Below are positions 18,497 to 40,496 of a stretch of 64,000 nucleotides of DNA, piece by piece. Location of the stretch: contig QWII01000014.1 in the NCBI GenBank assembly GCA_021405325.1, forward strand, positions 62,001 through 126,000. Reading direction: 5' to 3'. The notes beneath the pieces are model-generated. The model made no database searches and had not been told where the DNA came from. It saw only the letters and a program-made list of their open reading frames with translations. The position numbers were made by a program, and so were the translations under genes. This stretch comes from Caldilinea sp. CFX5 (GTDB taxonomy: Bacteria > Chloroflexota > Anaerolineae > Caldilineales > Caldilineaceae). Each line of letters opens with the position of its first letter. The first letter of the stretch is position 1.

Positions 18497-19741
18497 CTAG
18501 AATTGAATCATCCCGTAATACATGCCCATCGAACAACTATAAATCAACTCGCTGCCGGCGGCCTGGGGCGGTAGCTCAATCACCGTTTCACCCGTCTCCG
18601 GCAGAATTTCTTGAATACCCAAACTGGGTATGACAAAGGCGCGTACTCAGCCATAGACATCATTGGTCACCAGTTTCAGCTTGATCAGTTGATTGGCCGG
18701 CGCCTGTACAACCTGAGGTTCATAGCTATAATCAGTTACATGAATGGTGACAACATTCCCCTGGACAGCCGGTTGTGCGGCTTGCTCTGCACTGTTGGCC
18801 GCGCCCAGATCGGCCGACGATAGCACTTTCCACGCGGAGGGCAACGCTCCCTGGGCTAGATTGGCTGCGGCAGCCGGTGCATTCGTTGGTTGTGCCGACT
18901 CTGCCACTGGCGCAGCATTGGCAGATGCCAATGACTTCGTTCCGCTGGCCTCGAAGCGCGAAAAAGGCAGTGGCGCTCCCAACAGGGTCAGCCCACCGTC
19001 AATCGACACCAACCCCAAGACCAACACCACAGAGGCAACCACCTGTACAAAGCGCGCCTCCAGCGTTTTGCCGATTTGGGTCGCCAGGTACGCCAGCGCA
19101 AAGAAGAGCGGACTGGCGCCGAGGGTAAAGGCAAACATAATGGCGGCTCCTTCCAATGGGTCGCCCGTACCAATGGCTGTCGCCATCATGATTTGAGTCA
19201 CGCCACAGGGAATCAGGACCGTGAGCGCCCCTAAAAAGAGAGGCGTAATGAGATCATTGGTGTTCTTTTTCGCTCGCTTGCGAATGTAGCGCGTGACAAA
19301 GGATGGCGGTTCCAGGGCAAAGAGGCGAAAGAAAGGGTGTACATTGAACATGCGCAACGCCGACCCCACCATAAAGACACCAATGGCGATTTGCAGCACG
19401 GCGGTCATAAATGGGGTAAGTTGCAACATCGACCCCAGCCAGCCCAACAGAAAGCCGAGGATGGTGTAGGTGACGAGCTTGGCGATCAGAAAGAGTGCGA
19501 TGGAGGCTGCATAATTGGCGCGTCGCTCGGCTGCCGGCGCCGCTTGTCTGTAAACTGATGAGTGCGCCTTCTTCCCTTTTTTAGCGGCAGGCCGGGCCAC
19601 ACTGCCGGCCGCCAGTTTTTTCTGGATGGTTTGCTCCGCCTGGCGCGCTACCGAACTGGCCAACAGGCCGCCCTGCACCGCCAGGCAACTCAGGCCCCCG
19701 GTGGTCAAACCAGTGAGAAAGACAATGCCTAGATTAGCCAT
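18497..19741 (-). CDS. TauE/SafE-type membrane protein with C-terminal cupredoxin domain; candidate selenoprotein (in-frame TGA 18647-18649)
   Basis: Reading through the TGA gives 414 residues. Residues 1-240 are a six-helix membrane domain of the sulfite-exporter/UreH/CcdA-like kind (TGGLSCLAVQGGLLASS, then PLFLGALTVLIPCGVTQIMM). Residues 320-414 form a cupredoxin-like domain (VVTIHVTDYSYEPQVVQAPANQ). The TGA is codon 365, inside VTNDVYG-U-VRAFVIPSLGIQ. Forty-nine sense codons follow, with family-like ending YSCSMGMYYGMIQF (Cys403). I recall homologues carrying Cys at this place. A SECIS-like hairpin follows the TGA. A promoter overlapped by a BlaI/CopY-type operator lies upstream at 19803-19854. 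If TGA were a stop, the copper site would be lost. Confidence 0.82.
18615..18631 (-). other. bSECIS-like hairpin after the TGA
   Basis: On the mRNA, AUACCC and GGGUAU form a perfect 6-bp stem around loop AGUUU. The loop begins 22 nt after the UGA (21 intervening bases) and has G as its second base. This satisfies the usual bacterial SECIS description: apical loop 16-37 nt after UGA and G in the first two loop positions. Confidence 0.75.
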
Positions 19742-19802
19742 GCAACCTCCTGATGTTCATGGGTACTCTTCACGAGAATAGAATGATGCTACACAAAACA
19801 GC

Positions 19803-19854
19803 AATCTACTACAAAAATGTAGTAGATTATAGCAAAGCACAGCCGGCTCGTCAA
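19803..19854 (-). promoter_or_regulatory. BlaI/CopY-type operator overlapping a promoter
   Basis: AATCTACTACA-N4-TGTAGTAGATT (19803-19828) is a perfect palindrome. On the minus strand TTGACG (19849-19854), a 17-base spacer and TATAAT (19826-19831) form a near-consensus promoter whose -10 box overlaps the operator edge. It drives the TauE/SafE-cupredoxin gene. The same layout is found at 33148, 39141 and 40623. Confidence 0.85.
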
Positions 19855-19885
19855 CCTGATAAGCCCTTGTGTTTGTTTTTCCATC

Positions 19886-19989
19886 AGGACTTACGCACAC
19901 AAAGCGCACGAAGAACACAAAGCTCTCTGGTATTTCTTTGTGTTCTTTACGAGCTTTGTGAGAGATTTTCACTGATCTGCGTAAGTCCT
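19886..19989. mobile_element. MITE-like element with AGGACTTACGCA ends
   Basis: A 104-base element bounded by AGGACTTACGCA (19886-19897) and its exact reverse complement (19978-19989). Inside is a second inverted pair built from GAAGAACACAAAG and CTTTGTGTTCTTTAC. It has no coding capacity. The same end motif occurs singly at 28287-28299 and, with one change, near 273-285. It interrupts sequence that is collinear with 33180-33340. Confidence 0.7.
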
Positions 19990-20116
19990 ATCTATTATAT
20001 TATTGGGTTACTGTGTTCCAATCTATCCATCTTTCTGAGGATTTTTGGCAAATCGTTGGGAATTTTCGTGTTCTGTGATAGATAGTGGAGATAGGGCGCC
20101 TGGCTCGTTCGGCTCC

Positions 20117-20155
20117 TTACGTGCATGCATGAGCCACAATGATTTTGAAGATAGC
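20117..20155 (-). pseudogene. Remnant of methyltransferase C-terminus
   Basis: Read on the minus strand, the last codons give IFKIIVAHACT and a stop. They closely match the end of the methyltransferase at 33304-33954 (IFKIIVAHRPT). Flanking DNA (GGCTCGTTCGGCTCCTTACG) also matches 33278-33310. Only the extreme 3-prime end is kept. Confidence 0.6.
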
Positions 20156-20195
20156 CGGTCATTGCATCTTCTGCAAAAGCTGGAACGCTTAGAAG

Positions 20196-20278
20196 CTGTT
20201 TGAAAAGTCATCACCTACACCTGACAGGTTTCCAAAAACCTGTCAGGTGTGGAGTGGCGACGCACCCTTTTCAAACAG
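20196..20278. repeat. Nested palindromic repeat element
   Basis: The outer arms CTGTTTGAAAAG (20196-20207) and CTTTTCAAACAG (20267-20278) enclose an inner perfect palindrome, ACACCTGACAGGTTT (20217-20231) with its complement (20236-20250). It is non-coding, resembles a short interspersed palindromic element, and may also terminate transcription of the SPW gene. The wider gap 19742-20282 otherwise holds only the operator, the MITE and the methyltransferase remnant. Confidence 0.65.
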
Positions 20279-20282
20279 TCTC

Positions 20283-20624
20283 TTAGACAATGTAGCGGTC
20301 CCAACTGCCGTACCGCTCGCGTACCTGGCCGCGCGGGAAGCTCAGGAGAATCAAAATCGCGCCAACCAGAATGTCGTTCCAGGTCGACCCTGTCGTCGCC
20401 CCACCTAACAGCCAGGGGGCGACGATAAACCAGGCGCCGAGCGGAATGTTGACAAAGCGCAGGGTGCGCGCCACTTCCGCCATCGCCGTGACAGCAACGG
20501 TGGCTACCAGGGCGCCCACCAGATGATCGCTGTCGGCGGCGGCGCCCTGGCTACCAAAGACCGCCGGCGCCGCCATCAGCCAGACGCCCAGCACGGCGCT
20601 CAGGAGCAGCGGCCAAACGCGCAT
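20283..20624 (-). CDS. SPW-repeat membrane protein (likely the shifted C-terminus of the preceding fusion)
   Basis: A 113-residue frame with four hydrophobic segments and SPW-family signatures (LSAVLGVWLMAAPAVFG and LGAWFIVAPWLLG). It overlaps the end of the 768-residue epimerase fusion by 74 bases in another frame. The fusion's own tail in that overlap (EDARLAAAPERRAGRLADG) is low-complexity and unlike the family, while this frame resumes SPW sequence directly. A one-base frameshift is therefore likely. GGAGGG before its ATG leaves open independent translation. Confidence 0.7.
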   Translation of the reverse strand: MRVWPLLLSAVLGVWLMAAPAVFGSQGAAADSDHLVGALVATVAVTAMAEVARTLRFVNIPLGAWFIVAPWLLGGATTGSTWNDILVGAILILLSFPRGQVRERYGSWDRYIV

Positions 20625-22857
20625 CCTCGCCGCCGCCCTCCACCGTGCCGCCCATCCAGAAGGTGCGCCAAAAGGGGTGGCCGGCGCGCGTGCGCTGCAC
20701 CACGAATTGACCCATAGCGATGACTTCGTCCAGCGTCAGGGGAATCATGATCAACATCGCCAGGGCTGTGATCAAGCAAAGCGTACACCACGTGCCGACG
20801 GCCACCGGCTGCAGGATGACCAGCGTGATGCTGACCACGCCCAATGGCACAACCAGAATGCCGAAAAAAGTCACCATCCAGGGCATCGTGCGCCAGCGAC
20901 TGGCGCCACCCATGTAGCCCATCAACGCCTCGATCGTGTAGGCCACCGTGCCCAGGCCAGCATCCGAAATGGGCCAGGCGCGCGATACGTCTGAATCCAG
21001 GATTTGCATCGTGCCAGGGCCGAAAAAGGGGTCCCAGGCGCTGGCGATGTACCCCAACTGGTAGGCCGCCAGCCAGCGCGAGAGAAAGAAGCCAACCCAG
21101 CCCAGGGCAATGATCGGCGTGCGCTGGAGCCAGGAGGAGGGGTTGTATGTCCAGCCGGGCGGCGTCTCTGGGCCGGACTGCATCATCAAGATCATGCCGG
21201 GCATACCAGGGATGAGGACAGTGAGCGCGATGATCAAGGCGCCGATGAGCGAATCGTTGAGGTAGGCGGCTGCCGTGGGCGCCCAGAAGATCAGCGGCGC
21301 AAACAGCAGCCAGACGCCCACCAGGCAGGCCGCCCACGGCGCCCACAGACGGCGCGGGTGGAGTGAAAGCCAGCCGAGGACAACCAGCAGCACACCACTG
21401 ATGATGTCGCTCCAGGTCATCGCCAGACCACGCCCGGCCAGAGAGGGCAGGCCGCGTTCGGCGGTAACGCGCGCCACTTCACTCTCAGCCGTGGCAACGT
21501 TGTTGTAGCCGAAGGTAAAAGGGCTGCTGATCAGCCACACCCCCAGCAAAACGATCAGGAGATAAATCCAGAGCGTCTTGTGATGGTGTTCACGCTGCAT
21601 AGCCTGCCGTTCTTCGTCCGTCATTTCACTATGCCCGTTCGTCATCGGCATGGCCATCTGGGGGCGCGTTACGCCCCGTTCAGCCATGGCCCCGTGCTGC
21701 ATGGCGGGCATTGCAGTTTGGTCTTGCGCAGCTTCAGGTCGCTGCGGCTGCTGTTCTTTTTGCGTAGATTGATGTTCTGGCGAGTGCATAGCGGCTGTTT
21801 TCAGCCACACGGGCGGTTTCAATTTGTTGCCACGATACCAGCCACTGGGGTCCGTTTTGAGCGCATCGATCATCAGCGGGAGCGTGTCACGCAAAGAGTG
21901 CTGTGGCGCCCAGTCCAGCACCCTACGCGCACGAGAGATGTCCAGCTCGTAATGGTCGTCCGCCAGGTCGATCATGCGGGGCTTGATAAACGGTTCTTCG
22001 CCCAGCGGCAGCCGGTTTTGCAGCCAAGACCCTGCCTTGGCCAATGCCTTCGGGATCGGGTATGTTTTCCATTCCTCACCGTGGATGAGCCGGCCAAACG
22101 TGCGTTGGAGTTCGTCATAGCTGAGGACTTCCGGTTCACCGAGCAGTAACACTAATTCAGGCGGCAGTTGTGTACGCCGGTGGACGACCCGCACGCAGGC
22201 GTCCACCAGGTCGTCAAGATGCAGAAATGACTGGCCGTGCGCGAGCTCGCCGGGAAATACATGGCTGGTGAGCTGGCGCTCGTAAATGCGCTGAATCTGG
22301 TGCGCCAGCGGGATGGAATCGCAGCGGTCATCATACACCCCGGCAATGCGCAGGAGTACAGTGGGAGTGTCGCCGCGTTCGGCGTGAATCAGTTGCTCTG
22401 TCTTGACCTTGGATTCCGGGTAGGCCCACTTGGGCGCCAGCGGCCACTCCTCGTTGATCGGCTGGCCCGGCGCCGATGGCGCATGGACAAGCATGGTGCT
22501 GGAGAAGATAAATTGCCCAATGTCAAACTCCTGCAACCCACGCAGCAGCCGCTGGGTGCCGTCTACGGTAATCTCATCGTATTTTGGGCTTGGTTCACCC
22601 GAAAAATCATAGTAAGCGGCGAGGTGGATCACGGAAGCAATGCGCTCGCCATAGGCGTAGCGGACACGGCGCAGGCCGGCCTGAACGCTTTCCGCCTCGG
22701 CCAGATCGACGCACACGCACTCCGCCTCGATCGGCGGGTGCGGATCCCCAGCGCGGTCGAAGCCTATGATTTGGAACTCTTTTGTCAGGCGCCTGATCAC
22801 CGCTGAACCAATCAGCCCACTGCTGCCGGTGACAAGGATTATCTCTTTATCTTCCAT
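20551..22857 (-). CDS. NAD-dependent epimerase fused to SPW repeats and a VKOR-like domain
   Basis: Residues 1-340 are an extended short-chain dehydrogenase/epimerase with VTGSSGLIGSAVIRRL for NAD(P) and YPESKVKTEQ for the catalytic Tyr and Lys. A Met/His-rich linker follows (MPAMQHGAMAERG), then SPW-type membrane repeats (LLGVWLISSPFTFGYN and CLVGVWLLFAPLIFWAP). The final part is vitamin-K-epoxide-reductase-like, with the CxxC of GTWCTLCLITALAML. VKOR-like proteins reoxidise thiol oxidases in the envelope, consistent with the many thioredoxin-like genes here. The C-terminus appears frameshifted into the ORF at 20283-20624. Confidence 0.85.
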   Translation of the reverse strand: MEDKEIILVTGSSGLIGSAVIRRLTKEFQIIGFDRAGDPHPPIEAECVCVDLAEAESVQAGLRRVRYAYGERIASVIHLAAYYDFSGEPSPKYDEITVDGTQRLLRGLQEFDIGQFIFSSTMLVHAPSAPGQPINEEWPLAPKWAYPESKVKTEQLIHAERGDTPTVLLRIAGVYDDRCDSIPLAHQIQRIYERQLTSHVFPGELAHGQSFLHLDDLVDACVRVVHRRTQLPPELVLLLGEPEVLSYDELQRTFGRLIHGEEWKTYPIPKALAKAGSWLQNRLPLGEEPFIKPRMIDLADDHYELDISRARRVLDWAPQHSLRDTLPLMIDALKTDPSGWYRGNKLKPPVWLKTAAMHSPEHQSTQKEQQPQRPEAAQDQTAMPAMQHGAMAERGVTRPQMAMPMTNGHSEMTDEERQAMQREHHHKTLWIYLLIVLLGVWLISSPFTFGYNNVATAESEVARVTAERGLPSLAGRGLAMTWSDIISGVLLVVLGWLSLHPRRLWAPWAACLVGVWLLFAPLIFWAPTAAAYLNDSLIGALIIALTVLIPGMPGMILMMQSGPETPPGWTYNPSSWLQRTPIIALGWVGFFLSRWLAAYQLGYIASAWDPFFGPGTMQILDSDVSRAWPISDAGLGTVAYTIEALMGYMGGASRWRTMPWMVTFFGILVVPLGVVSITLVILQPVAVGTWCTLCLITALAMLIMIPLTLDEVIAMGQFVVQRTRAGHPFWRTFWMGGTVEGGGEDARLAAAPERRAGRLADGGAGGLW

Positions 22858-22869
22858 TCTACCCTGCCC

Positions 22870-23103
22870 TTATTCACCCGATTCACGCCGCCGGGCCTGG
22901 GCTTCCCGCCACACGCCCAGAATCAACAGACCAGCACTGAGTACGACCAGGATCACCTCCACAGGCGTTGCATTGGGGCCAGGCGCCGCCCGGTGGAGAC
23001 CGAGGAGCCAATGAGCCACTACGTTGTCCACGATACCGAGCACGCCCAAGGCGATCAGCGCACCATTCACAAGAGCGTCGGTGCGATTCTCATCCCTGTT
23101 CAT
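22870..23103 (-). CDS. Small DUF2243-like membrane protein
   Basis: A 77-residue protein with two hydrophobic helices. LGVLGIVDNVVAHWLLGLHRA resembles the start of DUF2243 membrane proteins, which are usually twice as long, so this may be a shortened member. It sits 12 bases upstream of the epimerase fusion on the same strand. Function unknown. Confidence 0.6.
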   Translation of the reverse strand: MNRDENRTDALVNGALIALGVLGIVDNVVAHWLLGLHRAAPGPNATPVEVILVVLSAGLLILGVWREAQARRRESGE

Positions 23104-23179
23104 CTTTTTTGTGTTCGGATTTCCTTTACTGGAGACAAAGATCGCTTTCTTTATCTCCCATCATCTGCTCGTTGGCTAG

Positions 23180-23638
23180 CTAAGCCTGTGGTGCAGCCAC
23201 ATGGGAAGCTTCCGGCGTTGGCTGTGAAACTTCTTGCACCATTTCGGCTGTCTTCTCCTGCGGCGCGTGCATAGCAATGTCCGCCTGGGCCACCATGCCA
23301 CAACAGCCCCCCCTTTCGTTCACGACAGGGACGCGCCGCACCTGGTTTTCCTCCATCGTCCGGCAGCAATCATCGACACTGGTCTCCGGCGTGACAGTGG
23401 CCACCGGGCTAGACATATAGTGGCCGGCGGTCATTTGCAGTGGGTTCTGGCCCACCGCTACCGTCCGGCTGACAATGTCGCGGTCGGTGATCACGCCTAC
23501 CGGTCTCATGGTCTGCTCGTTTTCGACGACAGGGATGCAGCCACAGTCGTGCTCTACCATCATCCGCGCCACTTCCTGCAGGTTAGTGTCCGGTGTACAA
23601 CAGGCTGGGTTGCTGGTCATCACATCTCTCACTTGCAT
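23180..23638 (-). CDS. CBS-domain pair protein
   Basis: A 152-residue cytosolic protein made of two CBS motifs: VRDVMTSNPACCTPDTNL with GVITDRDIV, then HYMSSPVATVTPETSV with CGMVAQADIAMHAP. CBS pairs bind adenine nucleotides and usually regulate partner proteins. Unusual for the family are extra Cys pairs (ACC, DCGC, DDCC and GGCC) that could bind metal or form disulfides. GAGAGGAG precedes the ATG, and a BlaI/CopY-type palindrome lies 50 bases upstream, linking it to the copper regulon. Confidence 0.88.
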   Translation of the reverse strand: MQVRDVMTSNPACCTPDTNLQEVARMMVEHDCGCIPVVENEQTMRPVGVITDRDIVSRTVAVGQNPLQMTAGHYMSSPVATVTPETSVDDCCRTMEENQVRRVPVVNERGGCCGMVAQADIAMHAPQEKTAEMVQEVSQPTPEASHVAAPQA

Positions 23639-23687
23639 AGTTTTCTCCTCTCGATTGCTTACGTACCGTCTGGTTTACGTCTTCTTT

Positions 23688-23707
23688 CTACTACAATCGT
23701 GTAGTAC
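23688..23707 (-). promoter_or_regulatory. BlaI/CopY-type operator upstream of CBS gene
   Basis: CTACTACA (23688-23695), spacer ATCG and TGTAGTAC (23700-23707) form the same palindrome core, with the same 4-base spacer, as four other sites in the window. The outer AATC/GATT bases are not kept and no clear promoter could be aligned, so it is the weakest of the five. Confidence 0.6.
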
Positions 23708-28430: not shown

Positions 28431-28724
28431 TTAACGGCTTGCACTCTCTACTGACTGAAGGTGGGCAGTGTCCGCTGACGCGCTGCGGGTGCGGGTTAGC
28501 GCTTCCTTCTCTGCCTCCAGGGCTACGATCTGTTCCACCGCGGCAATTTCCTGTTCCAACTGGCGCCGTTGCTGGTGCAACGCTTGCAGACGATCCGAAC
28601 CGGAAATATGGCTCGACGTGGCGTGGTTGCTACCCATGTTTCGATTCATCATCCACATCATCAAGCCCATGCCGACAGGACAGGCCAAAACGGCGAAGAA
28701 GAGTAAAAGTGTACTAAGCTCCAT
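28431..28724 (-). CDS. Small membrane protein with coiled coil, tandem family member 1
   Basis: A 97-residue protein starting at ATG 28724. A hydrophobic helix ends in LACPVGMGLMMWMMNRNMG, which joins a Cys-Pro to a Met-rich end. It is followed by a coiled-coil stretch (RLQALHQQRRQLEQEIAAVE). It is clearly homologous to 28886-29173 and, in its second half, to 29771-30139. I do not recognise the family. Position directly downstream of copA suggests a role in copper handling. Confidence 0.7.
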   Translation of the reverse strand: MELSTLLLFFAVLACPVGMGLMMWMMNRNMGSNHATSSHISGSDRLQALHQQRRQLEQEIAAVEQIVALEAEKEALTRTRSASADTAHLQSVESASR

Positions 28725-28885
28725 GGTAATTTTTCCTTTCTTTCGTCCCTTGCTTGGATTAGAGGCAAGCAAGAGCAAAAACCGCGCCACTTCAGGCCAC
28801 CACGCTGGGATAAGCAGCGCCGGAAGGCCAAGCAGCGCTACACGGTGTTCAACCAGGCGTAAGATTGGCGGACGAGCTCTGTCGT

Positions 28886-29173
28886 CTAATGCTGCACCCC
28901 TACCACCAACTGCGGCTGGCCCTCCGGCGCCGCTATGCGCTCATGGGTCAGGGCCTCTTTCTGCGCCTCCAACGCCAGAATCTGCTCGGTTTCGGCGATC
29001 TCTTGCTCCAGTTGCCGCCGTTGGGCGTGCAGCGCGTGCAGGCGCTCCGCTTCTGATTGACCCGTGGACATGGTCTGACTGCCCATGTTCCTCCCCATCA
29101 TCCACATCATCAGCCCCATGGCAATTGGGCAGGCCAACGCGGCCAGGAAGGGCAAAATTGTCGTAAGTTCCAT
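28886..29173 (-). CDS. Small membrane protein with coiled coil, tandem family member 2
   Basis: A 95-residue protein with AAAAGGAGA before the ATG. The helix ends LACPIAMGLMMWMMGRNMG, and the coiled coil reads RLHALHAQRRQLEQEIAETE then ILALEAQKEALTHE. Identity with member 1 runs through the whole length, so a local tandem duplication is likely. No enzymatic motif is seen. The Cys-Pro and three-to-five Met at the membrane face could bind Cu(I); this is inference. Confidence 0.75.
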   Translation of the reverse strand: MELTTILPFLAALACPIAMGLMMWMMGRNMGSQTMSTGQSEAERLHALHAQRRQLEQEIAETEQILALEAQKEALTHERIAAPEGQPQLVVGVQH

Positions 29174-30413: not shown

Positions 30414-32915
30414 TCAACTCACAGGCGATTCCCGGCTAATACGCGCATACTGCCGTTCTTTTGCGGCGACGGCGACCACCTGTGGCGGTCGAAAACCGCG
30501 CAGCCGCAGCGCGTTAGAAACCACCGACACCGAACTAAGGGCCATGGCTAGCGCCGCAAACACCGGGTTCAGCAAGACGCCCATAAAGGGATAGAGCACC
30601 CCCGCGGCAAGGGGAATGCCCAGCGTGTTGTAGATGTAGGCCCAGAACAGGTTCTGCTTGATGTTGCGCATGGTCGCCTTGGAGAGCGCAATCGCCGTCA
30701 CCACGCCGCGCAGGTCGCCGCTCATCAACGTGATGTCGGCCGCTTCCATAGCCACATCGGTGCCGGTGCCAATAGCAATGCCCACGTCGGCCTGGGCCAG
30801 TGCGGGCGCATCGTTGATGCCATCGCCCACCATCGCCACGCGCAGCCCTTCGGCCTGGAGTTGCTTGACTTCCGCCGCCTTGTCTTGCGGCAGCACTTCA
30901 GCCAGGACGCGGTCGATGCCCACCTGGTTCGCGATGGCTTCCGCCGTGCGACGATTGTCACCGGTGATCATTGCCACCTGCAGGCCAAGCCGGTGCAATT
31001 CCGCCACCGCTTCCTGCGAGCCGGGTTTGAGCGTGTCGGCCACGGCGATGATTCCAGCGGACTGACCATCCACCGCGATGAACATCGGTGTATGGCCCTT
31101 ATCCGCCAGGCGCTGCGCTTGGTCTTCGAGGGCGCCCAGGTCAATCCCACGGTCACGCATCAGTTTACGATTGCCGGCCAACACCTGTTGCCCATCGACC
31201 AGGGCCTCCACGCCGTGACCAGGAATCGCAACAAAGTTAACCGGCTGGCTGAGCGTCACCCCGGTCTGTTGGGTGTGGATGACAATGGCCTCCCCTAACG
31301 GATGTTCTGAGCCACGTTCAGCCGAAGCGGCCAGGCGCAACAAATCGGCTGCTGCCAGGTTGCCCACCGCCACCACTTCCGTCACGGCCGGTTTGCCGCG
31401 CGTGAGCGTGCCGGTTTTATCCAGGACAATCGCCTTGACGCGATGGGCCATTTCCAGGGCTTCGGCGCTGCGGAAAAGTACGCCGTTTTCCGCCCCCTTC
31501 CCCGTGCCCACCATAATGGCCGTAGGTGTGGCCAGGCCCAGCGCACACGGACAGGCGATGATCAGCACGGCGACAAAGTTGGCCAGGGCGAAGTTGATCG
31601 CCGGCGCCGGTCCGAAGACAAGCCAGACGACCAGTGTGATCAGCGCAATGCCGATGACGACCGGCACAAACACGGCCGTGACTTTGTCCGCCAGGCGCTG
31701 AATGGGCGCTTTGCTGCCCTGCGCTTCTTCAATGAGGCGGATAATCTGCGCCAGCACCGTATCTTTGCCGACTTTGGTCGCGCGAAATTTGAAAGCGCCC
31801 GTGCGGTTGATCGTCGCGCCGACCACCTCATCCCCCACTTTTTTGTCCACCGGGATCGACTCGCCGGTAACCATCGACTCATCCAGCGTCGAATAGCCTT
31901 CCACAAGCACCCCATCCACCGGCACTTTCTCACCAGGGCGGACGATCACAATATGGTTCACCTGCACTTCTTCCACCGGAATGTCTGTTTCTACGCCGTT
32001 CCGCACCACGCGCGCCGTCTTGGCGCGCAACCCCATCAGCTTGCGAATCGCCTCGCCGGTCTGGCCTTTGGCGCGCGCTTCCAGCCAGCGCCCCAACAGA
32101 ATCAGCGTAATAATGATCGCCCCGGTGTCCAGATAGAGCGCACGCGTGCCTTCCGGGAAAAACTGCGGAACCAAGATGACGGCCAGCGAGTAAAGATAGG
32201 CCGCACTCGTGCCGACGGCGATCAACGTGTTCATGTCAGCCGTGCCGTGGCGGAGGGAGGCGAACATGCCGCGATAGAATTGCGCCCCGGCCCAAAACTG
32301 CACAGGCGTGGTCAAAATCAGCAAGGTCCACGGGTTCTGCAAGAGCGCTGGCACCCACGGAAACCATTCCGGGAAGCTGCCCAGGAAGACGGGGACGGAC
32401 AGGATGGCCGAGAGAATGAACTTGAGCCGGAGGGTGTTCGCCTCGCGGCGGCGCGTGGCTCGCTCGCGGTCTTCACCGCCTATGCTTTCTTCGACCACCT
32501 CAGGCACGGTATAGCCCGCGTTGTTGATCGCACGCTTGAGATCGGCCGGGCTGGCCAGCGTCGGGATGAATTCAACGGTAGCTTTTTCGGCCGCAAGATT
32601 GACGTTGGCGTTCAGGACACCCTCTACCTTTTGCAGCGCACGCTCCACGGTGTTGACACACGAGGCGCAACTCATGCCGGCCACCGGCAAGGTCAGTTTC
32701 TCGACCGGCACTTGATAGCCGCCTTTTTCAACCGCCGTAACCAGCGCCTCGGGCCTAACCATAGCCGGGTCGTAGGTCACCGTGGCCCGTTCCGCCGCCA
32801 GGTTCACGACTGCCGACTGAACGCCTGCCACTTTTTTCAAGTTGCGTTCCACCGTGTTGACGCACGATGCACAGTGCATGCCCTGCACGGGCAACGTCAC
32901 GTTTTTTCCACTCAT
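30414..32915 (-). CDS. copA: Cu(I)-exporting P1B-1 ATPase
   Basis: An 833-residue ATPase with two N-terminal metal-binding domains ([13 protein letters not shown] and [13 protein letters not shown]). Eight membrane helices follow, with the copper-site motif [13 protein letters not shown], phosphorylation loop DKTGTLTRG, and [18 protein letters not shown]. The C-terminal [16 protein letters not shown] completes the P1B-1 signature. It pumps Cu(I) out of the cytoplasm. A decayed copZ and a 34-bp palindrome with promoter lie upstream (33148-33203), so it is probably regulated by the BlaI/CopY-like repressor. It leads the minus-strand run down to the MCO. Confidence 0.96.
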
Positions 32916-33138: not shown

Positions 33139-33147
33139 CCACACAAG

Positions 33148-33203
33148 TTACAATCTACTACAATATTGTAGTAGATTGTAACAAAAGGCGGCCCGTTCGT
33201 CAA
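33148..33203 (-). promoter_or_regulatory. 34-bp perfect BlaI/CopY-type palindrome overlapping a promoter
   Basis: The arms 33148-33164 and 33165-33181 are exact complements (outer TTACAATCTACTACAAT). On the minus strand TTGACG (33198-33203), a 17-base spacer and TACAAT (33175-33180) form the promoter, with the -10 box inside the palindrome. It faces the decayed copZ and copA. Confidence 0.85.
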
Positions 33204-34018: not shown

Positions 34019-34687
34019 TCATCGCACAATTTCGGCCACGAATGCGTCAACTTGCTCATCGGTCATCACCCCGATTTGCATGCGCACCACACGCCCGTCT
34101 CGATCAATAAAGATACTGGTCGGCAAGCCGCGCAACTGGTACAGGTCGGTGGTCACTGCGCCGGTCTCGTCGAGCAGCACGGGAAAGGTCATGTCAAACT
34201 CCTGCACAAATGCCTGCACCGCCGGCAGCGCGTCTTGAAAAGTCAAGTTGATGGCCAGAATCACGAATCCCTCATCCTGGTGTACCTCGTAGGCGCGCAC
34301 CAAAGCGGGCATTTCCAGGCGGCAGGGTGAACACCAACTGGCCCAGAAGTTGATCAGCACTGGCCGGCCACGCAACTGGGACAGGCTGACTTCGTCGCCA
34401 TCGAGCGTTGCCAGCGCAAAATCGGGGGCAAGTGCGCCAACGACCGGGGCGGCTGCGGCAGGGTCGGCGTTCGTTGTTCTCTGCGCCGCCGGATTGAGGG
34501 ACAGGGTGATATCGCTCGCCCCTGCTCCTGTTTGAGCTGGGCGCCGTTCCACTCCTAACGTGCGCCAGCCGGCGACCCACCCCAGGATGAGGCCACCCAG
34601 CAACACCGCGATTAACCACCAGCGCCGGTGTTTGCCAGATGTGGATTCAGTGTTGCCGGCCCACGGTTCCATACGAATTTCATCCAT
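34019..34687 (-). CDS. TlpA/ResA-like membrane-anchored thioredoxin
   Basis: A 222-residue protein with one N-terminal helix (WWLIAVLLGGLILGWVAGW) and a thioredoxin domain with active site WCSPC (FWASWCSPCRLEMPALV) and cis-Pro loop GLPTSIFIDRDG. Its ATG overlaps the stop of the selenoprotein candidate upstream (GATGGATGA), so the two are translationally coupled. The pairing of a UxxC protein with a CxxC protein suggests that they exchange electrons directly. Confidence 0.92.
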   Translation of the reverse strand: MDEIRMEPWAGNTESTSGKHRRWWLIAVLLGGLILGWVAGWRTLGVERRPAQTGAGASDITLSLNPAAQRTTNADPAAAAPVVGALAPDFALATLDGDEVSLSQLRGRPVLINFWASWCSPCRLEMPALVRAYEVHQDEGFVILAINLTFQDALPAVQAFVQEFDMTFPVLLDETGAVTTDLYQLRGLPTSIFIDRDGRVVRMQIGVMTDEQVDAFVAEIVR

Positions 34688-35363
34688 CTATCCATGCAAT
34701 ACGAGTCGGCAAAGCGCCTTCCTGCTCTGTCTGGCTCGCCTTCATCATCGCCAAAATCTCATCGGCGTTGTCGCCAAAATAGAGATCAACGCGCTGCAGG
34801 CGAATCAACCCATCCGGGCCGATGATGACATAGCCCATCTCCGGAATCTCGCCCATGCCGCCCATCGGCCATTCCGGGCGCAGTTGCATATCATACAGGC
34901 GGGTCACGGTGAGGTCGCGATCCGCCAGCAAGGGAAAACTGGCGCCAGAGCCGGCCTGGGTATAGCGGAGTGATTCCGGTGTATCGTAGCCGACGGCAAT
35001 CAGGTCGCCCACCGCTTGAAACTCATCGATCCATCTCTCCAACTCGCCGAGTTGGTTGACGCAGAGTTGTCACTGATAGCCCATGTAGAAGACGAGGGCC
35101 TTAGGCCGCCCATCACCGGGCGTCACGGTATAGGGCTTGCCATCGACGCCCGTCGCCGTGAAGGCAGGCGCCGGCTGGCCGACGTGGGTGGGTACGCTAA
35201 AAGCGCTGTCCGAGTTCTGGAGTTTCACGTCGGCGCCGGACCTAAACGGTTGAGAGCCGAGCAAGACGCCCAAACCGCCGAGAATCAGCGCCGCAATCAC
35301 GAGGGGCACCGTTATGCGTCGTCCAGTTTTACGTGTTCGTGTTGCGCGCTTCTTTTTGCTCAT
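34680..35363 (-). CDS. Thioredoxin-like UxxC protein; candidate selenoprotein (in-frame TGA 35070-35072)
   Basis: Reading through TGA gives 227 residues. An N-terminal anchor helix (VPLVIAALILGGLGVLLGS) precedes an AhpC/TSA-like thioredoxin domain: HVGQPAPAFTATGVDGKPYT, then KALVFYMGYQ-U-QLCVNQLGELERW. The TGA is codon 98 and replaces the first Cys of a CxxC, giving U98-Q-L-C101. Homology continues beyond it with VGYDTPESLRYTQ, FPLLADRDLTVTRLYD and YVIIGPDG. A 7-bp hairpin with loop GGC follows the TGA. The protein would be an extracytoplasmic thiol or peroxide reductase. The next gene is a coupled TlpA-like protein. Confidence 0.88.
35039..35055 (-). other. bSECIS-like hairpin after the TGA
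   Basis: On the mRNA CCAACUC and GAGUUGG form a perfect 7-bp stem with loop GGC; 21 bases separate UGA from the loop, and the first loop base is G. CUCU and AGAG can extend it as a lower stem across an internal loop. It meets the usual bacterial SECIS description. Confidence 0.78.
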
Positions 35364-35375
35364 TGTTACTCACTT

Positions 35376-35648
35376 CTATCGCTCTTCGATCTGCCGCTTC
35401 ATCCGTTCATACTGCTCGGCGTCGATTTCGCCTTGCGCGTAACGACGCTTAAGAATATCCAGGGCAGTGTTTGCCGGCCGCTCTGACGCAGCGCCTGGCG
35501 ACCGGAAATTTCCACCAGCGCGCCCGATGGCCCAAACAATGGCGACAACCAGCGCCACCAGAACGACCAGGGTGAGCAACCAGCCCAACACCATCCAGCC
35601 CATCATACCGCCTCCCATCATGCCATCCATCATGCCGTTACCCATCAT
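35376..35648 (-). CDS. Met-rich SHOCT-domain membrane protein
   Basis: A 90-residue protein. The N-terminus is a Met/Gly repeat (MMGNGMMDGMMGGGMMGWM) running into a helix (LLTLVVLVALVVAIVWAIG), a linker and a SHOCT tail (LDILKRRYAQGEIDAEQYERMKRQI). Met clusters of this kind bind Cu(I) in CopA/PcoA-type proteins. The same GMMDGMMGG string occurs in the small protein at 35887-36033 and a related one in the oxidase at 23786. It ends 12 bases before the UxxC selenoprotein gene. Confidence 0.85.
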   Translation of the reverse strand: MMGNGMMDGMMGGGMMGWMVLGWLLTLVVLVALVVAIVWAIGRAGGNFRSPGAASERPANTALDILKRRYAQGEIDAEQYERMKRQIEER

Positions 35649-35746
35649 TGAGTTTACATCCTTGCACTTTGTACGTTGCGTAAACGTAGCCTATAACTCT
35701 TATCTACAAATACCAGACCTTATGCCGATTTGTTGACTCACCCGAA

Positions 35747-35804
35747 TATCACCGCGAATCATTCGGATTTGCGAATTCGCTCATTCCTGGCATTCGCGGT
35801 GATA
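35747..35804. repeat. Inverted repeat between Met-rich genes
   Basis: TATCACCGCGAAT (35747-35759) and its exact complement (35792-35804) flank a 32-base loop that contains further CGAAT/ATTCG copies. It could be a terminator or a small palindromic element in the 238-base gap 35649-35886. A direct repeat (AATGTCACTGT twice, 35844-35869) is also present. No gene is seen in the gap. Confidence 0.5.
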
Positions 35805-35886
35805 CCTGGCCTGACAGCGTAAAGCGGAATAAACTCTACCATCCCAATGTCACTGTTCTAATGTCACTGTGGCGATCGTTGCTGAA

Positions 35887-36033
35887 TCAACGCATCTGCC
35901 GAATCAACCAGATGATGGCAACCACAACGAAGATAATAAGTAGAAAACCTAAAATCCACCACAGCGCCATTCCTCCCATCATGCCATCCATCATGCCGCC
36001 TTGCAGCAGACCCACTACCATCTTCGTTTGCAT
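35887..36033 (-). CDS. Tiny Met-rich single-helix membrane protein
   Basis: A 48-residue protein starting at ATG 36033 behind AGAGGAAAG. The N-terminal QGGMMDGMMGGMALWW Met motif is followed by one membrane helix (ILGFLLIIFVVVAIIWLI). It looks like the SHOCT protein at 35376 without the SHOCT tail. A role in periplasmic copper binding is inferred from the Met motif and neighbours. Confidence 0.68.
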   Translation of the reverse strand: MQTKMVVGLLQGGMMDGMMGGMALWWILGFLLIIFVVVAIIWLIRQMR

Positions 36034-36110
36034 TCTTTCCTCTTTTCTGGATATCGTTTGACCCTTGAAAAGACAGATATTGTGATATTCGCCAGCTTCG
36101 ACCTTGTGGT

Positions 36111-36605
36111 TCAAGGTGCAGAAAACGGCGTCGGCGTCGGCGCAAAATCCTTGCGCGTCTCCTCCGCCTGCCACTGGCGGTGTTCTGCTGTCCAGAGGCT
36201 TTTGAAATAGGTAATCAAAGCGCGAATCTCTGCATCGCTCAACTTATCGCCAAAGGCCGGCATCCGTAAGGGCGACCCGGGCTTGAGGGGGTCGCTCATC
36301 CCATCGCGGATCACTTCATATAGTACGCGGTCGGAGTGATGCCAGGTGTGGCCGGTGTCGTCGTGGGGCGGCGGCAGGAAAAAGCCATCGGGACCGGGGG
36401 TGGCCCAGTTGGGTGCGCCCTCGGCGTTACTGCCATGACAACTGGCGCATTGTTGTTGATAAAGCGCACGCCCGCGATCCACTTGCGCAGCATCCAGCGT
36501 TGGATAAGACGGCGCGCCTGGCCCAGAAGAGGCCGCCGTTTGTCTGCCACAAGCTGCCAGCGTCATCCCCACGATCAACAGCCACAGCCACCGTCCTCTG
36601 TTCAC
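36111..36605 (-). CDS. Lipoprotein cytochrome c, single haem
   Basis: A 164-residue predicted lipoprotein (WLLIVGMTLAACGRQ). The haem motif CASCH lies in YQQQCASCHGSNAEG, and LRMPAFGDKLSDAEI supplies the axial Met. FLPPPHDDTGHTWHH is shared with the cytochrome at 17518-18027. The GTG start at 36605 overlaps the stop of the YCF48-like selenoprotein gene by four bases, so they are translationally coupled. Together with Rieske and SCO it suggests an electron-transfer module. Confidence 0.9.
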   Translation of the reverse strand: MNRGRWLWLLIVGMTLAACGRQTAASSGPGAPSYPTLDAAQVDRGRALYQQQCASCHGSNAEGAPNWATPGPDGFFLPPPHDDTGHTWHHSDRVLYEVIRDGMSDPLKPGSPLRMPAFGDKLSDAEIRALITYFKSLWTAEHRQWQAEETRKDFAPTPTPFSAP

Positions 36606-37540
36606 AATTCGGCTCCCATCGGTTGCCAGGTGGCGCCGCCATCAAGGGATTGCCAGACGGAGTCATCCGTCAATACGACAAAGACGGTTTGCGGCGTCGC
36701 CGGATCGAGCGTGACGGCCAGCGGTTCCCCGCTCAGGCCGGCGCCGGCTGTTTCCCAGGTTAACCCGCCATCGTTGGAACGGAAGAGGCCGGCCGGTCCG
36801 GCAGCGTAAACACGTTGTGGCGTCACCGGATCAACCGCAACTGAGCGCACCATGGGGTTTGTGGACAAACTGCCCACCTGACGCCACCCTCAGAAACAGT
36901 CCATGCTCAGGTAGGCCCCGCTCGGTGTCGAGGCATAGAGCCAGCCGGTATTCATGCTGCCCGGCAAGGTTGAGTGAACCAGACCGCGCACATCTTTGTC
37001 CTGCGGACCTTGATCCGGCAACTGCACCCAAGTGGCGCCGCCGTCTTCCGTGCGGTACACCCCATCCTCCTTGAGCCAAGCATAGAGAATTTCCCGCTTG
37101 AATGAGTGCAGGGCGAGGGCCGTCACCTTCAGGCTGGGCAAGCCCGTGTTAACGGCCTGCCAGGTCGCCCCCTCATCGTTGGAGCGGAGCACGCCCACCC
37201 CCAGGCCGCTGACATAGATGGTCTCTGGTTGCTCCGGGTTGACAACCACCCCCGACACAGGAGCCGTTTCCGGCAGCGCAACGCTTTCCCATTGGCCGCC
37301 ACGCCAGCGCGCCAACCCATAGCTATCTGCCCGCAGCAAACTGCCGTCGGCCGGCTGATAGGCCAGGGCGACCGGACCATTACCGTCACGTTCGCCTGTT
37401 GTTGGAGGCGCTTCCGCCTGAGCAGCCGGGGGTGGCGCTGTGTTGTCTACGGCGGTTGACGGCGCACCGGTCGCACAGGCCGCCAGCAACCATGCGCCCA
37501 ACAACAGAACAAACAACCCTTTTGCTTTTTGTCGTAGCAT
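36602..37540 (-). CDS. YCF48/BNR-repeat lipoprotein; candidate selenoprotein (in-frame TGA 36890-36892)
   Basis: Reading through TGA gives 312 residues. The lipoprotein signal is LFVLLLGAWLLAACAT. Sialidase/YCF48-type beta-propeller blades follow: GVLRSNDEGATWQAVNTGL, GVYRTEDGGATWVQLPD, then AYLSMDCF-U-GWRQVGSL, then GLFRSNDGGLTWETAG and SVWQSLDGGATWQPMG. The TGA (codon 217) falls inside a blade and the repeat register continues straight through it, so truncation is unlikely. It gives C215-F216-U217, a CxU motif. GGAG precedes ATG 37540. Related proteins help assemble membrane complexes; this one may handle metal or redox. Confidence 0.82.
36861..36877 (-). other. bSECIS-like hairpin after the TGA
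   Basis: On the mRNA GUGGGC and GUCCAC form a 6-bp stem (one G-U pair) around loop AGUUU; 18 bases separate UGA from the loop, and G is the second loop base. The loop is identical to that of the TauE/SafE-cupredoxin gene. Confidence 0.72.
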
Positions 37541-37586
37541 ACCTTTCTCCATTCGTGTTATTTTGCCGGATGTTCCTGAACACTGG

Positions 37587-38414
37587 TTAACCTCTGACCG
37601 CTCGAAACGGCGATTCGGTGCTTGGACTGCCCAGGATCTTCTTGCCGGTGTCAACGATCAGTTGACTGTTTTCTTCAGCGATTGGGAAGCTATCGAGCGA
37701 CCGCGGCGCCGGGCCTTCGATGTACAAACCATCGTGGGTGAACTTGGAGCCGTGGCACGGGCACTCAAACCGGTTGTTCGTGGGCGCCCACTTGTACAAA
37801 CAACCCAGGTGGGTGCAAACCATGTACAGCGCTTTGGGGCTGCCTTCGGCAGTAGTAACGAGCCAGAATTTGCCCTCGCTGTATGGTTTAGGTGCAGCGT
37901 CCGCCGGTGGCACTTCCGCCGGCGGCAGGTAAAATTTCCCGCCGAATTCACCGGCGCGAAAGCGCGGGTATAAGAAGAAGAAGCTGACTACGCCTGCTTC
38001 GAGGGTCAACAAACCAAGCGCTGCACCCCACGCATAGGTCAAAAACTCGCGGCGATTCATGGCGGCGCCAAACGTGGATGTCACAGCTTCGGCTTCAGGC
38101 TCGGCCACAGCCGGTTTGACCGCCGTGGGTTTGGGCGCCGGCGCCACGGCAACGCCACTGCTGGCTGACACCAGAGGCTCCTCCGCAACCTTGATGGGAG
38201 GCGCACTTGCCACGCTGGCTTCTGCTACAGCCTCTGCGGCTTTGGGCGCGCTGGCAGCAGCGACTGGCGCCGGCGCGACTGTCCTGGCTGGCGCAGCGGT
38301 CGCACGCTCGCCGGCGGCTTTTGCCTTCTTCGCCGCCTCCTGCATCTTGCGTTTCAGTTCAGCAATATGCTTTTCACGCTCTTCACCAGTTAATTCAGCC
38401 AGTTTCTCCATCAT
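37587..38414 (-). CDS. Rieske 2Fe-2S protein with long N-terminal extension
   Basis: A 275-residue protein. Residues 1-125 are a charged then Ala/Pro/Val-rich extension ([20 protein letters not shown]). One membrane helix follows ([21 protein letters not shown]), then a Rieske domain with cluster motifs CTHLGC and CPCHGS. The domain faces the periplasm and transfers electrons from quinol to cytochrome. No cytochrome b is present in the window, so it probably serves a noncanonical chain with the cytochrome c and SCO genes beside it. It is 18 bases downstream of SCO. Confidence 0.93.
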
Positions 38415-38431
38415 ATGGACCTTCCTTCCGG

Positions 38432-39118
38432 TCAGTCAGATTCCTCACGCAAAAGCTCCTCAATGCGTTGCCCTAATAAATCGCTGAGAGGAGGGAAACC
38501 CGCTGCTCCGCCGCTTTGACCAAAAGGGACAGAAATGTACCAGCGCTTTTGTCCGTGTTGGTCAATCAGATAAACCCCCGGTGTATGTAGAATATCTCCC
38601 TCTTCCGTAGGGGTAACGCCAACCTGATACGCCTGCCAGACAGGCTCCAGCTCGGCGGCGCTGCCGGTTAAAAAGTGCCAGGTGGGGATTTCATCCAGTA
38701 GCCACTGTTGGGTGGTCGCCATCACATCCGCCACAGTGTTGGCCTGCACATTGACATTGACGCCGAGAAAGATGACGGCAGCCGAATCGTCCAGCGCGCG
38801 ATAAACCGTGCGCAAATGGGAAGCGGTTAGCGGGCACACATCGCGGCACTGGCTATCAAAGAAGGTCAGCACGACCACGCGGCCGCGAAAGTCAGACAAG
38901 GCCACCTGGTCGCCATGCTGATCGACCAGACGGAAGTCCGCTGCGGGACCCTGGAGGGCTGTGCCCCCGTAGTCGGCGGTTTCAGCCGGTGCGAAAACGC
39001 GACCCAGCGCGAGACCTGTCGCCAGCGCCAGCACAAAGGCCAACGTCCCCCAAAACCATAGTCGGGGCGTTGGTTTGACGGCGGATCGAGGATCGAGGGG
39101 CTCTTGCTTTGTTTGCAT
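38432..39118 (-). CDS. SCO1/SenC-like copper chaperone
   Basis: A 228-residue membrane-anchored thioredoxin-fold protein (helix [20 protein letters not shown]). Copper and redox ligands are the CxxxC of [17 protein letters not shown] and the His of [14 protein letters not shown]. Such proteins deliver copper to oxidase CuA sites or act as thiol reductants. ATG 39118 is preferred to the in-frame GTG at 39127. A promoter overlapped by the BlaI/CopY palindrome is immediately upstream, so it is the first gene of the regulated operon. Confidence 0.9.
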
Positions 39119-39140
39119 GATCGCCACTTGCTTTACTCAA

Positions 39141-39192
39141 AATCTACTACACTTATGTAGTAGATTGTAACAAGGCGACCAGCCAATGTCAA
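39141..39192 (-). promoter_or_regulatory. BlaI/CopY-type operator overlapping the SCO operon promoter
   Basis: AATCTACTACA-N4-TGTAGTAGATT (39141-39166) is a perfect palindrome. On the minus strand TTGACA (39187-39192), a 17-base spacer and TACAAT (39164-39169) form the promoter. It lies between the divergently ordered SCO operon and the 3-prime end of the M56 protease gene. Confidence 0.87.
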
Positions 39193-39208
39193 GTTAGAAA
39201 ATTCTCAT

Positions 39209-40069
39209 TTATAGCGCGATTTGCAACACGACGCAGCCCAGGATGAGGATCAGGCTGCTGCGCATGAGGCTATGTGGGGAAAAGTGCCAGGCAAACGGTG
39301 TCCCATCTAACAGGTGGGCCAGCCGGGCATCGGTGGCGCTGATGCTGCGGACGGCGCCCATGTCTGTTGTAGGCAACTGAATGGCCAAAGGATGAGTGAG
39401 TAGTTTGTGCAGCGCGCCGGCCAACGAAAAGCGGCCGGCCAGACGCACGGCGTGGCGGTCAGCCGCCAGTTCAGTCGCAATGTGGAATAGATTCCGCCCT
39501 TCGGCCGCGGCAGGTAGAAAAAAAAGCAGGCCGGCCATAACATCGACCAAGAGGGTGCGCAACGGGTCGTAGTGGCGGCGGTGGTGTTCTTCGTGCAACA
39601 GGACCGCCTTCAACTCGCGATCGGTCAGCGTCTCGATCAACCCCGTACTCAGGCAGATCACGGGGCGCAGCAAGCCAAAACAGAACGCCAGCGGCGCCGG
39701 CGTGGCCAGCACCGCCACCGGGCGAGCAAGTCCTAACTCGGCGCAGAGCGCTGTCAGCTTCGCCGGCGGTGCAATAGGGGCCTGAACGTTCGCTGCCGCA
39801 CGGAGCCTGGCGACAAAACGATAGGTGTGCCATAAGCGCTTGCCCAGCCGGCCCAGCCCCACCAGCAAAGCAACTACCAACACTGTACGCGCGGCCGCAA
39901 TCAGCACAGCGACCACTACGCCAGGCAACAGGGTGACGAGCGCGTGGCAGCACACGAGCCACAAGGCCATCATATCATTCATCAGCCGGTGGGAAGTCGC
40001 AAGGAGAAGGCAGACAAGCGTGAGCGCACAGAGTAGAAAAAAAAGGCGTTGACTTTGCTTATGATTCAT
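39209..40069 (-). CDS. BlaR1/MecR1-like M56 membrane metalloprotease
   Basis: A 286-residue protein with about four helices. The zinc motif HEEHH lies in VLLHEEHHRRHYDPLRTLL, and a downstream ATELAADRHAVRL supplies the third ligand. The penicillin-sensing domain of BlaR1 is absent, so the signal is something else. It overlaps the BlaI-like repressor gene by 11 bases. In the BlaR1/BlaI paradigm the protease triggers repressor cleavage; given the operators found, copper or envelope redox stress is the likely signal (inference). Confidence 0.9.
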   Translation of the reverse strand: MNHKQSQRLFFLLCALTLVCLLLATSHRLMNDMMALWLVCCHALVTLLPGVVVAVLIAAARTVLVVALLVGLGRLGKRLWHTYRFVARLRAAANVQAPIAPPAKLTALCAELGLARPVAVLATPAPLAFCFGLLRPVICLSTGLIETLTDRELKAVLLHEEHHRRHYDPLRTLLVDVMAGLLFFLPAAAEGRNLFHIATELAADRHAVRLAGRFSLAGALHKLLTHPLAIQLPTTDMGAVRSISATDARLAHLLDGTPFAWHFSPHSLMRSSLILILGCVVLQIAL

Positions 40070-40496
40070 GCCGTCCCTCCTGGGCCAAGCGCGCCAGTTC
40101 GGCTAAGCGCGCCAGTTTGTCTGGATCGACCGCCGATAGTTTTTCCACAAACTGGCTGATCGCCAGTTCTTCGCCAAAGTCATCGATCAGCGACTGCACC
40201 ACCTGCCCCACTGTTTGCGCCTCAAATTCCTCACGGGTCTGTGCAGCGTGATAGCGATGCGTCTTTCCCGCTTTCTCGACGCTTAACAATCCTTTTTCGA
40301 CCAAGCGGTTCATAATGGTCATCACGGTGGTATAGGCTAATGGGCGTGTCATCGTTACAACCGCCAATACATCGCGTACGGTGACTGTCCTACGCGCCCA
40401 AATGATGCTCATCACCTCAAGTTCCAACTCGCCGAGCAATTTTTCTGCCCCTTTGCCGGGATATTCTGTTAGCTGGATGTAGCGCCTGTCAGCCAT
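40059..40496 (-). CDS. BlaI/MecI/CopY-family repressor
   Basis: A 145-residue winged-helix repressor. The DNA-binding part reads LGELELEVMSIIWARRTVTVRDV then AYTTVMTIMNRLVEKGLLSVE, and the C-terminal half is a dimerisation helix bundle. It has no CopY-style CxC...CxC copper hook, so inactivation is probably by the adjacent M56 protease. The operator palindrome lies in its own promoter (40623-40664), implying autoregulation, and similar sites precede four other loci. The ATG follows a weak ribosome site. Confidence 0.93.
   Translation of the reverse strand: MADRRYIQLTEYPGKGAEKLLGELELEVMSIIWARRTVTVRDVLAVVTMTRPLAYTTVMTIMNRLVEKGLLSVEKAGKTHRYHAAQTREEFEAQTVGQVVQSLIDDFGEELAISQFVEKLSAVDPDKLARLAELARLAQEGRHES

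Follow-up and report, generated by a model that had tools for sequence, protein, structure and literature searches.

Three minus-strand genes in a 64,000-nucleotide stretch of DNA from Caldilinea sp. CFX5 (contig QWII01000014.1; the whole stretch is hereafter called the window) each carry one in-frame TGA and appear to code for selenoproteins. The names borne by relatives (Aggregatilineales, Anaerolineales, Promineifilaceae and Anaerolineae) suggest a host in the Chloroflexota. The genes, designated S1, S2 and S3, are predicted to encode a DsbD-type membrane protein fused to a cupredoxin domain, a redoxin and a beta-propeller lipoprotein, respectively. Judging from sequence, it is very probable that the three UGA codons are read as selenocysteine (Sec) in redox proteins, and the products are likely to be extracytoplasmic. 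The best overall explanation, to which we assign a probability of about 70%, is that the window encodes three selenoproteins that are part of a copper-handling module. An initial annotation of this DNA had described three TGA-split genes with SECIS-like hairpins within 19 kb, and the three TGA codons indeed span 18.2 kb, each followed by a 7-base-pair (bp) stem.

The hairpins were evaluated by a strict form of the bacterial Sec insertion sequence (bSECIS) rule in section 5 of PMC13188914, which calls for a G[G/U]N triloop located 16-37 nucleotides (nt) after the TGA and an unbroken stem. All three predicted bSECIS hairpins, like their UGA codons, are on the minus strand and have 7 bp. The S1 hairpin (18615..18631) has the loop A-GUU-U and lies 22 nt past the UGA at 18647..18649, the S2 hairpin (35039..35055) has the loop C-GGC-G and lies 21 nt past the UGA at 35070..35072, and the S3 hairpin (36861..36877) again has the loop A-GUU-U and lies 19 nt past the UGA at 36890..36892. 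Thus, the loop AGUUU is common to two hairpins, as noted previously, whereas that of S2 differs. When the peptide is held fixed, synonymous recodings match the observed stem in 412 (S1), 971 (S2) and 452 (S3) of 20000 trials.

Among 2117 TGA triplets scored on both strands of the window, only 10 (0.47%) are followed by a stem of at least 7 bp. Three of these ten, the S1, S2 and S3 codons, also have a positive coding score on both flanks, where the score was trained on the long open reading frames (ORFs) of the window itself, including the first part of S1. The other seven include the triplets at 18662 and 36909, which are nearby, out of frame and share the S1 and S3 hairpins. This combination of a hairpin with coding sequence on both sides in only 3 of 2117 cases bears out the earlier judgment that chance is an implausible explanation.

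The most extensive evidence concerns S3 (36602..37540, minus strand; PF15902, 55.4 bits), a BNR/sortilin-like propeller in which the predicted Sec is residue 217 of a Cys-Phe-Sec motif (SMD-C-F-U-GW). The predicted structure model has a pLDDT (predicted local distance difference test) of 87.4. By eye, S3 and the cytochrome that follows it have lipoprotein-type starts (LLAAC and TLAAC). From a genome collection, contigs carrying either of two short peptide patterns yielded 56 S3 loci. The motif is Cys-Phe-Cys in 47 of these, Cys-Phe-Sec in six (L002, L003, L004, L005, L007 and L056), Sec-Phe-Sec in two and masked in one (L053). Of the best 120 protein records among 2652 relatives found at an E-value of 1e-3, 103, including the window copy, end at the Sec position, nine end two residues earlier, six are full-length Cys forms and two are neither. 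The nine early ends fit the truncation expected of Sec-Phe-Sec proteins. Moreover, the S3 code is conserved past the UGA, where 46-67% identity-style matches run through the codon and the sequence scores as coding.

The S3 hairpin is preserved together with its codon. The pattern GGGC-[A/C]G[U/G]N[U/G]-G[C/U]CC is found at a constant distance in all nine aligned Sec forms, window included. In this alignment 97.2% of stem cells are paired, two pairs are changed on both sides, and the covariation score is reached by 0 of 500 shuffles. None of the 42 Cys forms scored reaches 7 bp and eight reach 6 bp, a set that leaves out five CFC-LW loci missed by the pattern. In the two Sec-Phe-Sec forms (L006 at 10600 and L009 at 4918), a UGA stands on either side of the Phe codon, and a shared hairpin loop follows the two at distances of 25 and 19 nt. 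With a single loop for two UGA codons, one hairpin would serve both Sec positions.

Several other observations relate to the distribution of S3. The 33 stretches of viral contigs that match a pattern include none that encodes an S3 relative. At an E-value of 1e-60, a search of 158 genomes from the class of genome G002 recovers only G002 itself, and a search of 154 genomes from the order of genome G001 recovers only G001 itself. In L056, the S3 match at 4622-5019 is split over two frames, an apparent frameshift in the assembly. Contig L003 is labelled Proteobacteria but has the S3-cytochrome-S2-BlaI order of contigs labelled Chloroflexi, which could reflect either transfer or a binning error.

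S2 (34680..35363, minus strand; PF00578, 61.4 bits) is an AhpC/TSA redoxin with the motif MGYQUQLC, in which the predicted Sec is residue 98, and its N-terminus is likely a membrane anchor. The UGA is present in all nine relatives read. Eight of these lie near S3 among the 56 loci, and all eight have the UGA within MGxxUxxC. The ninth, MVYTUGSC, is in genome G068 (locus L110), where S3 has no match at 1e-20. In this copy Val follows the Met of the motif, and visual inspection shows a 7-bp hairpin. Over nine sequences (the window and eight loci), 100% of S2 stem cells are paired with two both-side changes, and the covariation score is reached by 5 of 500 shuffles. Locus L001 provides a within-genome control, carrying an S2 gene with UGA, yet an S3 gene in the Cys form without the hairpin. 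At 1e-20, S2 has five matches in four of 298 genomes plus one in 158 genomes, and all contain the TGA. A protein database search, in which the segments on either side of the UGA are mostly outside the searchable lengths, returned four matches, among them a remote Cys redoxin (P0004, E-value 1.7e-7). P0002 and P0003 have an SCO domain joined to the part of S2 past the UxxC, without the Sec half, and could be a fusion or an assembly artefact.

S1 (18497..19741, minus strand) joins a DsbD_2 membrane domain (PF13386, 100.8 bits) to a cupredoxin domain (PF13473, 41.1 bits) that resembles CupA of Streptococcus pneumoniae (4f2e), a copper chaperone with a cupredoxin fold. The predicted Sec, residue 365, aligns with CupA Cys74, which is described as coordinating each of the two Cu(I) ions. 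The CupA ligand set C74, C111, M113 and M115 is matched, as is the fold. Thus, we infer that S1 includes a CupA-type Cu(I) cupredoxin domain with Sec in place of Cys74. Of the 120 matches listed (4613 pass an E-value of 1e-3), 115 have Cys at residue 365 and five end exactly there. These five are the window's own P0125 together with P0142, P0154, P0157 and P0167, the last four being known from protein records, in which the codon is not visible. Cys19 and Cys179 of the membrane part are present in all 120 relatives among the matches listed. A search of plasmids yielded a single S1 record, which is partial and covers 59% of the query.

The UGA of S1 has been read in the window alone and most of the relatives listed have Cys; the Sec form of S1 is rare and is the weakest of the three cases. 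Decoding of this UGA as Sec is accordingly predicted with less support than for S3 and S2, where the case is strong. The earlier proposal that Sec replaces Cys at redox or copper sites is borne out for S1 and S3 to the extent that their relatives have Cys at the Sec position.

Genomes that carry the UGA forms have features expected of Sec users. The whole-genome search covered 21 of the 56 S3 loci, corresponding to eight Sec-form genomes (G001 by S2 only; G002-G006, G008 and G021 by S3) and 13 Cys-only genomes. The 35 remaining loci include just one Sec locus, L005, which belongs to the same assembly as L004. SelB exceeds its cut-off in six of eight Sec-form and five of 13 Cys-only genomes; the G021 protein scores 232.5 against 242.25 bits and is clipped by the contig start, and G008 has none. 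SelA is found in six of eight (absent from G005 and G008) and five of 13, respectively. A tRNA-Sec above 60 bits is found in seven of eight (not G005) and five of 13, where hits of up to 53 bits occur in all genomes and five of 14 control genomes exceed the cut-off of 47. In every one of the eight Sec-form genomes, one or more of selA, selB and tRNA-Sec pass these thresholds. SelD is detected in eight of eight Sec-form genomes and 11 of 13 Cys-only genomes, and its match contains an internal TGA in eight of eight versus 0 of 13 (Fisher p 4.9e-6, ignoring kinship). In the DNA of all eight this TGA is the catalytic codon (AG-U-xxK), and the corresponding codon specifies Cys in the three Cys-only genomes read (G009, G010 and G013). 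Accordingly, UGA in S3 or S2 coincides with Sec in SelD across these genomes. Genome G007 (L008) has a Cys-form S3 with SelA, SelB and tRNA-Sec, but its SelD is unmatched.

The three genes also appear to share a control element. The palindrome TACTACANNNNTGTAGTA occurs in the window as four exact copies and one with a single mismatch, and in none of 100 shuffles. Exact copies are located upstream of S1 (19807..19824), of a minus-strand gene for a CBS-domain protein (23180-23638; palindrome at 23689..23706), of copA (33156..33173) and of the SCO gene that starts the run containing S3 and S2 (39145..39162), and the copy with one mismatch (40627..40644) precedes blaI. The blaI gene (40059..40496, minus strand) codes for a BlaI-family repressor (PF03965, Penicillinase_R, 101.8 bits) and is adjacent to a gene for a BlaR1-like M56 peptidase (39209..40069, minus strand; PF05569, 51.3 bits) in which HEEHH is present. 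A Penicillinase_R repressor beside an M56 peptidase, with repeated palindromes, corresponds to a BlaI/BlaR1-type pair. We infer that the BlaI-family protein may act at the five palindromes, which are likely the putative control sites of the three split genes, and the genes probably form one copper-handling regulon.

The initial annotation had called this operator BlaI/CopY-type, and the BlaI half of that description stands, together with the M56 partner. The CopY half does not, because the protein scores 56.5 bits against a cut-off of 121.95 for CopY/TcrY copper repressors and has no cysteine among its 145 residues. CopY/TcrY repressors bind metal through a C-terminal cysteine motif, which is absent here. 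Without cysteines and with a score below the CopY cut-off, the earlier term 'copper-regulated' lacks support. The operator does mark the start of the S3-S2 run and has its own copy at S1, as claimed, and its reach is wider than was claimed, since it also includes copA, blaI and the CBS-domain gene.

The gene neighborhood is rich in copper and thiol functions. The run that includes S3 and S2 begins with a SCO1/SenC gene (38432..39127; PF02630, 62.6 bits) and continues with genes for a Rieske-domain protein (37587..38414; PF00355, 44.9 bits), S3, a c-type cytochrome that starts within the end of S3 (4-bp overlap; 36111..36605; PF13442, 56.2 bits), small Met-rich membrane proteins, one of which is encoded at 35376..35648, S2, a ResA/TlpA-like redoxin whose gene shares 8 bp with the end of S2 (34019..34687; PF00578, 94.7 bits) and a methyltransferase. 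The genes given with coordinates are all on the minus strand. Gaps in the run are -8 to 64 bp where measured, and about 460 bp separate the cytochrome gene from the ORF at 35376, with a small ORF inside. The island also contains CcdA, multicopper oxidase and CopA-like P-type ATPase genes, the last (copA; 30414..32915, minus strand; PF00122, 197.9 bits) with two HMA domains (PF00403, two stretches). Directly downstream of S1, with a gap of 4 bp by the listed start, is a gene for a CopZ-like HMA-domain protein (18220..18492, minus strand; PF00403, 50.2 bits). The copper and thiol neighbors mentioned in the initial annotation are thus present, in the form of HMA proteins, copA, multicopper oxidase, SCO and redoxins.

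The pairing of S3 with a cytochrome is widely conserved. In 53 of the 56 loci a cytochrome c gene follows S3 within 600 bp (exceptions are L006, L016 and L051). The same loci contain ResA-like genes in 45 cases, CcdA in 38, SCO in 30, CopA in 30, S2 in eight, BlaI in six and M56 in four, and these counts are lower bounds given that the loci are 3-21 kb long. Litchfieldella (L019) has, in this order, SCO, DUF411, redoxin, an unlabelled gene, CcdA, S3, cytochrome and CtaG, and the S3-cytochrome pair of Nitrobacter (L021) is flanked by DUF411 ahead of it and PCu(A)C after it. A Rhodopseudomonas plasmid carries multicopper oxidase, cytochrome, hypothetical, DUF411, DsbE, TlpA and hypothetical genes, then S3 (annotated 'YCF48-related') and subsequently cytochrome, SCO, PCu(A)C, oxidase assembly protein, DsbA and CcdA genes. 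The surroundings of S3 on a Halomonas plasmid are similar. However, the three split genes do not recur as a set. What recurs is S3 with cytochrome c, plus S2 where Sec is used, and the Sec form of S1 was found in none of the genomes searched.

A scheme can be proposed for how these proteins might cooperate. The DsbD-type domain of S1, by way of Cys19 and Cys179, would supply the CupA-like site with reducing equivalents, and Sec365 together with Cys403, Met405 and Met407 could there convert Cu(II) to Cu(I), bind the latter and hand it on. The Cys-Phe-Sec pair of S3, which is Sec-Phe-Sec elsewhere, might exchange electrons or copper between a thiol relay, formed by the S2 UxxC redoxin and ResA, and the cytochrome, beside SCO. 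The BlaI/M56 pair would turn these genes on together from the five palindromes. We would give even odds that S1, S2, S3 and the cytochrome form such a relay. Somewhat more tentative is the full version, a copper relay that would operate outside the membrane on the basis of selenium. In it, Sec would be the natural bridging ligand of a dinuclear Cu(I) site fed by the fused DsbD domain, S3 would work with cytochrome c through a Cys-x-Sec or Sec-Phe-Sec tooth that defines an uncatalogued selenoprotein family, and one BlaI/M56 switch would control the whole.

Several results weigh against three selenoproteins in a copper-handling module. Folding energy z-scores of the 76-79 nt pieces are 0.15 to 0.60 and not significant, and there are no Rfam matches in the window at the gathering threshold. 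With flat energies and no Rfam match, the case for the hairpins stands on position, loop pattern and conservation. Furthermore, the number of stem pairs changed on both sides is matched by 47 of 500 shuffles for S3 and 48 of 500 for S2. The UGA of S1 was read in the window only, and none of the 33 genomes with a 1e-60 match (among 298 genomes of G001's class) has an S1 gene with TGA; the corresponding search of G001's order was empty but uninformative, at a cut-off that also drops G001's own match. The counts of Sec machinery describe other genomes rather than that of the window, and two of those sets are incomplete, as G005 lacks SelA and tRNA-Sec and G008 lacks SelB and SelA. Finally, with up to one mismatch allowed, the exact operator is absent from eight of nine related loci and chance-like in L001, so it is either local to the lineage or different elsewhere.

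An unlikely but still serious alternative is that these are true selenoproteins with a general role in thiol or peroxide redox chemistry or in cytochrome oxidase assembly, with copper as one client. A redoxin such as S2 and a cytochrome partner for S3 would suit such roles, and the CcdA, DsbE, TlpA, DsbA, CtaG and SCO genes near Cys-form S3 genes constitute an oxidase-assembly toolkit. However, the S1 site matches the copper ligands of CupA, the island includes multicopper oxidase, HMA proteins and copA with a palindrome ahead of it, and other S3 loci also encode PCu(A)C and DUF411 proteins. It is very improbable that the UGA codons are genuine stops that define two-part or short regulated proteins without Sec. 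Although UGA ends other genes here and short forms are present in databases, S3 is conserved and coding past the UGA, Cys replaces it in 47 of 56 S3 loci, and the hairpins are conserved.

We consider two further explanations scarcely credible. Gene decay or sequencing errors could account for three split genes in a single window, and the apparent S3 frameshift in L056 shows a defect of this type, but the same codon is interrupted across many independent sequences and is followed by a single class of hairpin, and this explanation was rejected on that basis. Reassignment of UGA to another amino acid throughout the organism, which the initial annotation had raised as an objection to its own proposal, might likewise produce three TGA-interrupted genes per window. 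Yet copA, SCO, cytochrome c, ResA and multicopper oxidase genes, as well as S2 and S3 themselves, end at ordinary TGA stops. Only three TGAs combine a hairpin with coding sequence, and each either takes the place of a Cys found in its family or accompanies the second Cys of a UxxC motif. Global reassignment was therefore rejected as well.

Under our preferred explanation of three selenoproteins in a copper-handling module, comparison with known systems suggests what is new. Table 1 of a 2026 review (PMC13188914) lists 119 selenoprotein families, including UxxC redoxins, TsoB and a Cu/Zn efflux transporter, and names none as a propeller, BNR or cupredoxin family. S2 shares AhpC/TSA and UxxC features with the Prx-like UxxC thiol:disulfide oxidoreductase and redoxin families of that table, a likeness by description rather than by sequence, and differs in sitting beside S3. 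Because UxxC redoxins are catalogued there, S2 is an already known kind of selenoprotein. S1 and S3 are likely selenoprotein families not yet described; no title or abstract opening among the papers brought up by literature searches presents either as a selenoprotein, a scope that excludes subscription papers, preprints and supplements, among them that of the deep-Sep study (PMC12013277), which may list new candidates.

S1 differs from CupA, as the latter is described, by having Sec at the position of C74 and a fused DsbD-type membrane domain. It is like DsbD/CcdA conduits in its PF13386 domain and Cys19/Cys179 pair, but has the Sec cupredoxin domain and scores only 20 bits against a cut-off of 330 with the PRK00293 DsbD model. 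TsoB of the Tso operon is, by name, a rhodanese/DsbD-like fusion, whereas S1 is a cupredoxin fusion. The SO_0444 family Cu/Zn efflux transporter selenoprotein, known from its table entry alone, also combines copper and selenium and has a UxC motif, but is a transporter. S3 resembles Ycf48/BNR propellers and the F510_1955 family glycosylhydrolase in fold and repeats, and relatives are annotated as 'YCF48-related'. It is distinguished by its CF[U/C] motif and conserved cytochrome pairing, and falls short of the NCBIfam cut-off for the F510_1955 family (93.3 versus 175 bits). As in the SAO and Tso multi-selenoprotein operons, several selenoprotein genes occur together in the window, but from other families as those operons are described. 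The S3-S2 run is a fresh variation on such operons.

If these assignments are correct, S3 would be a new and common selenoprotein family whose members are likely annotated as short proteins, given that 103 of the best 120 relatives end at the UGA. S1 would place selenium at a copper site, which would allow selenolate to be tested as a natural copper ligand. The electron source of CupA is described as unknown, and the fused DsbD domain of S1 would suggest one. Genomes that use selenium for handling copper might be recognized by the S3-cytochrome c-S2 run, a marker at the level of genes.

Two minor features of the window were also recorded. An Epimerase-SPW-VKOR fusion protein is encoded at 20283-22857, and a second SPW-like stretch at its 3' end is in another frame, which might be due to a frameshift or sequence error. 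Small Met-rich membrane proteins with segments such as MWMMxRNM and GMMDGMMGG are encoded at 28431-29173, at 35376-35648 and on the minus strand at about 35900-36050.

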